From Chloroflexota bacterium (GTDB taxonomy: Bacteria > Chloroflexota > UBA11872 > VXOZ01), in contig JAPPLM010000047.1 of assembly GCA_028874195.1 (NCBI GenBank), forward strand, positions 94,979 through 158,978: 64,000 nt of DNA, given 5' to 3'. Below, one piece after another: positions 52,442-54,255 of the stretch. A program made the position numbers and the translations under genes. Numbering within the stretch: the stretch's first letter is position 1; every line of letters begins with the position of its first letter. The notes under the pieces are model-generated. The model did not search any database. It was given only the letters and a program-made list of their open reading frames with translations, and had not been told where the DNA came from.

Positions 52442-52612
52442 CTCCGGTGGCACGTGACCGGCTTCTTCCCAAAGTCGAAATGTGGTTCGACAGACTTCCG
52501 CCATGACCTGACCAATTGACGTGCTCTGACAGCAACGGGATTACCCGCGTAGAATTATCGCCGGTTGCCCGACCCCTAGCCGCATGTTAGAATCGCGCTG
52601 GGGATAGACAAT

Positions 52613-52697
52613 GCCGAAGTGGCGGAATTGGAAGACGCGCTACGTTCAGGGCGTAGTGGGCCTTGCGCTCGTGAGGGTTCGAATCCCTCCTTCGGCA
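52613..52697 (+). tRNA. tRNA-Leu (anticodon CAG)
   Basis: 85 bases. Acceptor arms GCCGAAG/CTTCGGC pair fully. The anticodon arm CTACG-TTCAGGG-CGTAG gives CAG. A long variable arm (class II) and the TTCGAAT T-loop are present. The CCA end is not encoded (ACCT follows). Confidence 0.95.
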
Positions 52698-52753
52698 CCT
52701 TATGGAGATGGTAGCTCTGGCAACCATCCAACATTCAGACGTTGGGAGAGAGA

Positions 52754-53587
52754 ATGAGCGCACAGGAATCCGACCGTCTAGGCCCACTATTCACGCAGTA
52801 TGTGCAATCAGTGGGCGTCGCAAACTTGAACGGCGAAGAAGCGCAGCATCTCCGCAGATTTGTCAGTTGGTGCGGCCCGGATACCCGCATCGGAGCTATC
52901 TACCCCCATCAACTTCAGGCCTATCTCGACCAAGTTGCGGCATCCGCCGATCCGAAACTGTGTGCCAGTGCGTTACGCACGTTCTTCTCCCACGCCAGCA
53001 AGGCCGGCTGGGTAGAAAATAACCCAGCTACGGGACTGAGAATTACGAAACGGAGCACGAAGAGCGACCCACGCGCCGCATCCGCCCAAACCGGCAACAC
53101 TTTCATCAGCCGGAAGCGGTACGACGAGTTGAGTATTGAATTAGAGCAACACAAGGGCGAAGGACGCGAGCGTATCAGCCACCTCTTACATGCCGCCATA
53201 AAGGATGGCGATCTGCGCGAGAATGCCGCCTACGACGAGGCCAAATACCAGCAAGGCATGCTGGAAGCGCGCATTCGAGAATTGGAGCAAACTCTCCGCA
53301 CGAGCACGATTACTGAAGAAGAAACACAATCAGCAAACGAAGACAGTGATGCTGTCGCCGACGAGGGCATAAAGATTGGCATGCGTGTCGAGTTAGAGCT
53401 CACCGACGGCAGCGAAACGATTGCCTACCAGCTCGTGGGACCGTCGGAAGTAGATCCGCTCGAAGGTCGGATTTCCTATCTTTCGCCCGTCGGCGCCAGT
53501 CTCCTCGCCAAGCGCGCGGGGGACACGGTTGCTGTGGAAACACCTGCGGGCAGCGAGACGTACCGAGTCTTGAGCTACTCTTTCTAG
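52754..53587 (+). CDS. Gre-family transcript cleavage factor with an N-terminal recombinase-like SAM domain
   Basis: 277 residues from ATG 52754 (GAGAGA ahead). Residues about 10-98 look like the core-binding (SAM-like) domain of tyrosine recombinases: four helices with IGAIYPHQLQAYL, LCASALRTFFSHASKAGWV and NNPATGLRI. Residues about 118-185 form the Gre coiled coil with GDLRENAAYDEA; D153 and E156 match the acidic tip that enters RNA polymerase. Residues about 205-277 are the FKBP-like Gre C-terminal domain. GreA itself is about 158 residues, so this is GreA plus an extra 100-residue DNA-binding-type domain and a loop. It follows tRNA-Leu. Confidence 0.8.
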   Translation: MSAQESDRLGPLFTQYVQSVGVANLNGEEAQHLRRFVSWCGPDTRIGAIYPHQLQAYLDQVAASADPKLCASALRTFFSHASKAGWVENNPATGLRITKRSTKSDPRAASAQTGNTFISRKRYDELSIELEQHKGEGRERISHLLHAAIKDGDLRENAAYDEAKYQQGMLEARIRELEQTLRTSTITEEETQSANEDSDAVADEGIKIGMRVELELTDGSETIAYQLVGPSEVDPLEGRISYLSPVGASLLAKRAGDTVAVETPAGSETYRVLSYSF

Positions 53588-53826: not shown

Positions 53827-54255
53827 ATGATCGAGACCTTGGCCACCGTCCTAAATTACGTTCTTGCCTTCCTCATCGCCTACGCGATTGCGCTGTGGAT
53901 TGCGCTCGCCATTTGGGCCTTCTATGACATTCGCACACGAACCAGCGATATCTTGGTGCAGCTCTTTTCGGTCCTGCTCGTGCTTGTCTTCAATATATTT
54001 GGCCTCATCCTCTACCTGTTTCTCCGTCCCAAGGAGACGTTGGCAGAAGCAAACGTGCTGGCGCTGGAAGAAGAGAGCTACCTGGCCGAAAGCGAAACGA
54101 TGTCTCGCTGTTCCAATTGCAACTATCGCCTGGAAAACGATTACGTGCTCTGTCCAATGTGTCAGATGGAAGTTAGAAAGCGCTGTACCGGCTGCCGAAA
54201 CCTCGCCGACTTGCGGTGGAACGCCTGCGCCTACTGCGGTACGCCGGTGCACTAA
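53827..54255 (+). CDS. two-helix membrane protein with C-terminal zinc ribbon
   Basis: 142 residues from ATG 53827 (GAGG five bases ahead). Hydrophobic segments at about 10-35 and 45-68. The tail has two CxxC pairs (CSNCNYR ... CPMCQ) and a second set (CTGCRN ... CAYCG), i.e. a double zinc-ribbon. Likely a membrane protein with a cytoplasmic zinc-binding tail; function unknown. Confidence 0.78.
   Translation: MIETLATVLNYVLAFLIAYAIALWIALAIWAFYDIRTRTSDILVQLFSVLLVLVFNIFGLILYLFLRPKETLAEANVLALEEESYLAESETMSRCSNCNYRLENDYVLCPMCQMEVRKRCTGCRNLADLRWNACAYCGTPVH

Follow-up and report, generated by a model that had tools for sequence, protein, structure and literature searches.

The window, i.e. the whole 64,000-nucleotide stretch analysed here, belongs to a 3.5-Mb assembly of 81 contigs and carries, on the forward strand (as for all genes of the window given below), a gene at 52754..53587 that encodes 277 amino acids plus a stop codon from an ATG start. 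From the translation of the open reading frame, the Pfam matches and the family alignment, we describe it as a fusion gene (CB-Gre), in which a domain assigned to the core-binding (CB, SAM-like) domains of tyrosine recombinases is followed by a Gre factor. The ATG is directly preceded by GGGAGAGAG. A tRNA-Leu(CAG) gene (52613..52699) lies outside the protein, 54 bases 5′ of the start codon, and two sigma-70-like sites are found 5′ of this tRNA in the stretch 52526-52754. On the 3′ side, positions 53827-54255 encode a small membrane protein with a zinc-ribbon-like Cys pattern. With the tRNA so close to the start codon and these sigma-70-like sites ahead of it, tRNA-Leu(CAG) and CB-Gre could be read as one transcript.

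Domain composition of the CB-Gre protein

The initial annotation had recognised about 100 extra N-terminal residues with the pattern of a recombinase CB domain, and sequence profile, predicted fold and conservation all support this assignment. The domain covers residues 1-99 (approximately 5-99; 52754..53050). Residues 1-110 alone gave no domain in a Pfam scan, single-sequence matches to recombinase families were weak (XerC, 0.0066; phrog_1 integrase, 2.6e-4), and Pfam run on 25 single N domains returned sub-threshold matches only, with Phage_int_SAM families leading in a few. Against PDB sequences, the N-domain profile of 25 relatives gave 3nrw (4e-6) and 5vfz (3.6e-5) as best matches; eight matches have E values no higher than 1, of which six are named integrase, recombinase, Int protein or phage protein Gp33, and the remaining two are 2kob, an uncharacterised fragment, and RaiA (0.29), which is unrelated. 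Recombinases were also recovered with this same profile.

The predicted fold leads to the same family. AlphaFold2 with the full alignment (mean pLDDT 78.6, pTM 0.48) places four helices within residues 9-83 (9-20, 27-40, 51-61 and 67-83), and the N domain modelled alone reaches a pLDDT of 79.1 and a pTM of 0.70, i.e. the region is predicted as ordered (mean pLDDT ~79), with CB domains among its top structural matches. In the full model, the N-terminal part aligns with lambda integrase (1z19_A, Z 13.2, rmsd 2.0, 92 aligned; lambda Int matches span Z 12.2-13.2) and with XerD (Z 12.0), while the N domain alone aligns with XerD (1a0p, VIA-align Z 12.5, rmsd 2.4, 85 aligned). Because helical bundles often yield middling Z scores, we place the weight of the fold match on the first 43 VIA-align rows for the N domain alone, all tyrosine recombinases or integrase fragments with Z from 12.5 down to 5.3 (including 2kob, which has no function in its title); the first non-recombinase fold comes at Z 5.2. 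Foldseek with the N domain alone agrees with a CB domain (best E 2.8e-3, probability 1.00; none reached 0.001). A basic linker follows at residues 100-115 (53051..53098), with pLDDT <50 at 99-114; in the family, the gap has a median of 10 aa and ranges from 5 to 44. The fusion protein has no match to the catalytic domain PF00589, in whose place the Gre factor stands, and it is not a recombinase.

The second half had been read as a complete Gre factor with an acidic tip at D153/E156, and both Pfam Gre domains are indeed present within residues 116-277. The N-terminal coiled coil (GreA_GreB_N, PF03449; residues 118-186; 53105..53311) scores 2.9e-18, or 66.3 bits for a cut-off of 24.5, with helices 120-150 and 158-183 in the AlphaFold2 model; the C-terminal globular domain (GreA_GreB, PF01272; residues 205-274; 53366..53575) scores 4.6e-20, or 71.8 bits for a cut-off of 26.9, and is also found by structural comparison. 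The tip itself, DLRE, lies at residues 153-156 (53210..53221). Like E. coli GreA (1grj), on which the C-terminal part of the full model aligns with a VIA-align Z of 15.5 (rmsd 3.1, 150 aligned), the protein thus combines a D..E-tipped coiled coil with a globular C-terminal domain. Unlike GreA, it carries a CB domain of ~100 residues and a linker at the N-terminus, and it scores below the curated NCBIfam greA cut-off (TIGR01462; 123.2 bits for the whole protein and 125.7 for the Gre part, versus 139). It is a member of the Gre superfamily by domain, tip and fold, and not a TIGR01462 greA. In the long GreA-type NCBIfam families PRK14720 and PRK06330, a longer protein likewise ends in Gre, but their profile lengths are 906 and 718, and the fusion matches only their Gre part.

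The tip D and E are present in 93/93 distinct fused proteins read. In GreA, the corresponding D41 and E44 act at Mg2+, and the globular domain remains outside the channel, as stated in an excerpt of PMC7527559. Since this anatomy is conserved, cleavage would be stimulated as in GreA, and CB-Gre is most likely a bona fide cleavage factor.

Distribution, origin and constraint of the fused form

The CB-Gre architecture recurs in 95 of the 400 Chloroflexota genomes, in 44 families, and this recurrence places the fusion beyond chance. The N-domain profile matched 289/400 genomes in two regimes: the matches down to E 4.0e-10 are Gre fusions, on which the count of 95 rests, and the next two are open reading frames that have the N domain but lack Gre (L272 and L273); weaker matches were read only among the recombinases used for the comparison of basic positions. 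Both profiles were read directly in one open reading frame for 92 of the 95 genomes, G076 being counted from a window-protein match over residues 31-271 only, and G107 and G205 on the N match together with the length of the open reading frame. In the search with the window protein, many of 101 relatives were matched over the full length. In total, the set comprises 93 distinct fused proteins. When contigs of many prokaryote species were searched with short exact patterns taken from one sequence, close relatives only were found; the nearest named relatives of the window's genome are Chloroflexota MAGs (L033-L035). One genome, G239, has two different fusions (G239:C16:6451-6762, L107; G239:C31:307589-307888, L119), and the divergent fusions of family f72 (L269, L270 and L271, from G320, G387 and G233) carry an acidic N-terminal extension, and in two of them extra residues are inserted close to where the CB domain ends. 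The earlier remark that no such fusion was known holds for the open-licence literature searched, in whose available parts on GreA, domain fusion and Chloroflexota/Dehalococcoides no description of CB-Gre was found.

A tree built from 120 Gre domains at a 68% identity cut gathers its 50 fused rows on one side of a branch with support 99/95, a split present in 100% of the 200 bootstrap trees checked, from a bootstrap that had not fully settled. Since all fused Gre domains thus belong to a single clade, the fusion has, for the genomes sampled, one origin within Chloroflexota. PF03449 detects Gre in 389/400 of the genomes, and the fusion is the sole Gre match in 34 of the 95 that carry it, with 30 of these 34 assemblies at least 95% complete; among them are genomes of 1.4-2.1 Mb from family f12, most of which are single contigs.

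The constraint on the N domain bears on a trivial explanation, namely that the N-terminal frame is an annotation artefact or a vestige, neither made nor used, with translation starting internally. An acetyl-lysine at K17 was reported by proteomics on the D. mccartyi GreA cbdbA743, according to an excerpt of PMC7918482, and this number would fit a count from an internal Met of L022, the probable Dehalococcoides homologue. Some records may therefore annotate a short form, and the long form may be mis-annotated in D. mccartyi. The N domain nevertheless is conserved in 93 distinct proteins from 44 families and is strongly constrained at the protein level: dN/dS is ~0.07 for L001/L004 (dN 0.036, dS 0.543) and 0.006-0.04 within the L022/L024/L025 trio (for L022/L025, dN 0.004 and dS 0.655). 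With synonymous changes far exceeding replacement changes, codon comparison indicates that the domain is under purifying selection, translated and kept, and we regard the artefact as hardly credible.

The parent recombinases use their CB domains to bind DNA at the recombination site (excerpt of PMC8138268). Over 75 fused proteins, the net charge of the N domain has a median of +5 (range -1 to 8) and that of the Gre part a median of -6, and residue 75 is K/R in 75/75. Residue 99 is K/R in 89/92 fused proteins and in 11/11 recombinases, residue 70 in 74% of 92 fused proteins versus 21/21 recombinases (the window protein has Cys there), and residue 96 in 91/92 versus 0/11, the recombinase set being small (11-21 rows) and picked with the same N-domain profile. 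With the CB domains known from tyrosine recombinases (lambda Int 1z19, XerD 1a0p; Phage_int_SAM), the fusion shares the fold and basic positions 75 and 99; it differs in lacking the catalytic domain and in its basic residue 96, not seen in the 11 recombinases compared. The conserved F36, W39, G41 and F77 are probably core positions, with no bearing on DNA contact. Charge and basic positions would fit a domain that still contacts DNA and whose linker region has been re-tuned.

The CB domains of recombinases also contact neighbouring protomers, and the domain could accordingly have become a protein-docking module that, by holding on to RNA polymerase or a partner factor, would make Gre bind more strongly or in a better orientation, with no DNA contact. 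The re-tuned surface, i.e. the nearly invariant basic residue 96 and the loss of charge at residue 70 in roughly one in four fused proteins, would agree with such a role, but the net basic charge and the kept K/R75 and K/R99 suit a nucleic acid better, and we hold docking to be rather doubtful in comparison with DNA contact.

The gene neighbourhood was compared across 61 loci, disregarding the many neighbour clusters that are antisense open reading frames in GC-rich DNA, and it is not uniform. The zinc-ribbon-like membrane protein is found 3′ of the fusion at 7/61 loci, all from the window's class; a gene that we take from its sequence to be rsmG-like lies at most 100 bases 5′, on the opposite strand, at 12/61; and a presumably reductase-like gene, also named from its sequence, lies 5′ at 6/61. 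No neighbour is kept across all families, which speaks against the CB domain recognising a specific chromosomal site and parking Gre there. A CB domain normally recognises its site jointly with the catalytic domain, absent from the fusion, and in genomes with no other Gre it would be hard to see why a housekeeping factor should be devoted to a single site. Although the parent domain does come from site-specific recombinases (excerpt of PMC8138268), we judge this parking very improbable.

Two further possibilities were rejected. A prophage or mobile-element origin of the gene was dismissed, as no fused match was found in the viral contigs (33 pattern matches, 0 confirmed), phages (18 records matched) and plasmids (66 records matched) searched, with no phage or plasmid record covering >80% of the query; the listed neighbour clusters showed no recurrent mobile genes. 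We also rejected the idea that the fusion replaces Mfd, whose TRCF domain was found in 12/12 fusion genomes tested. In G163 (L085), contig C19 carries a TRCF match of Mfd in the same orientation as the fusion and ~4 kb away from it, and mfd may be a near neighbour there.

Stand-alone Gre paralogues

Whether a separate Gre gene existed had been raised by the initial annotation, and the window's genome does contain one (L002, G000:C60:5575-5997). Its tip, GGDLSDMGEY, has D..D instead of D..E, as in four congeners (L159-L162). Among 71 stand-alone copies from 58 fusion genomes, 6 have D..E, 31 have D..D and 34 have other pairs, so that 33 copies have lost the first Asp and 55 the Glu; these counts leave out L037, whose tip is absent, and the second Gre of G233, G320 and G387. 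Note that four of the six D..E copies (L236, L249, L251 and L258) have an unusual tip, GGNDPSEN or GGNDPAEN, still counted as D..E. Stand-alone copies from fusion-less genomes have D..E in 28/44, in a hand-picked sample with one copy from another phylum. Striking as this raw contrast is, a functional coupling between the presence of the fusion and an altered stand-alone tip was rejected: over independent pairs the association is not significant, with one supported pair only. Given this relatedness test, and since six sampled fusion-less genomes of the window's class (L179-L184) also are without D..E, fusion and altered tip may share a history without one causing the other.

The changed-activity Gre paralogues Gfh1 (Thermus) and Rv3788 (M. 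tuberculosis) offer a model for these tip-altered copies: both inhibit RNA polymerase, Gfh1 by inhibiting catalysis (excerpt of PMC4598747). The fusion, unlike them, keeps the canonical D..E tip, and its sequence thereby argues against a Gfh1-type inhibitor role.

Probable DNA tethering of a putative cleavage factor

The reading that we consider probable is that CB-Gre is a DNA-tethered transcript-cleavage factor, whose CB domain would grip duplex DNA near RNA polymerase. The Gre half would enter the secondary channel of RNA polymerase, where the D..E tip would stimulate cleavage of backtracked RNA as GreA does. The N-terminus of a Gre factor sits at the globular-domain end of the coiled coil, outside the channel; since the globular domain and this N-terminus lie there, the CB domain should hang outside the channel too, on its linker of 5-44 residues (median 10). 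Freed from a catalytic domain, it would grip duplex DNA with little sequence specificity, most likely the DNA next to the polymerase, and the flexible linker would keep the cleavage factor at hand. The initial annotation had proposed a tether to DNA or to a specific site: the former is plausible in view of the basic, conserved, recombinase-like positions, and the latter found no support.

The position of the domain, near the mouth of the channel, together with its basic surface, could also suit binding of the 3′ end of backtracked RNA as it leaves the secondary channel, by which the N domain would help Gre to choose arrested complexes. The known ligand of the fold is duplex DNA, however, and we find this RNA-binding role quite improbable beside the DNA tether.

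A DNA-tethered CB-Gre may further be one half of a two-part Gre system, which we put forward tentatively and at low confidence: the tethered, cleavage-competent form would follow or wait on the template, the tip-altered stand-alone copy would act as a Gfh1-like antagonist or regulator, and shrunken genomes would have kept only the tethered form. If true, DNA, and not diffusion alone, would here bring a secondary-channel factor to its place of action.

For the databases, the consequence is that entries starting at an internal Met may miss a conserved domain. As to the biology of the phylum, the usual view is that Gre factors compete freely for the secondary channel of RNA polymerase; because the fusion has a single origin, is widely kept and is often the sole Gre, our results suggest that much of Chloroflexota, probably with Dehalococcoides among them, couples the rescue of backtracked complexes to contact with DNA.
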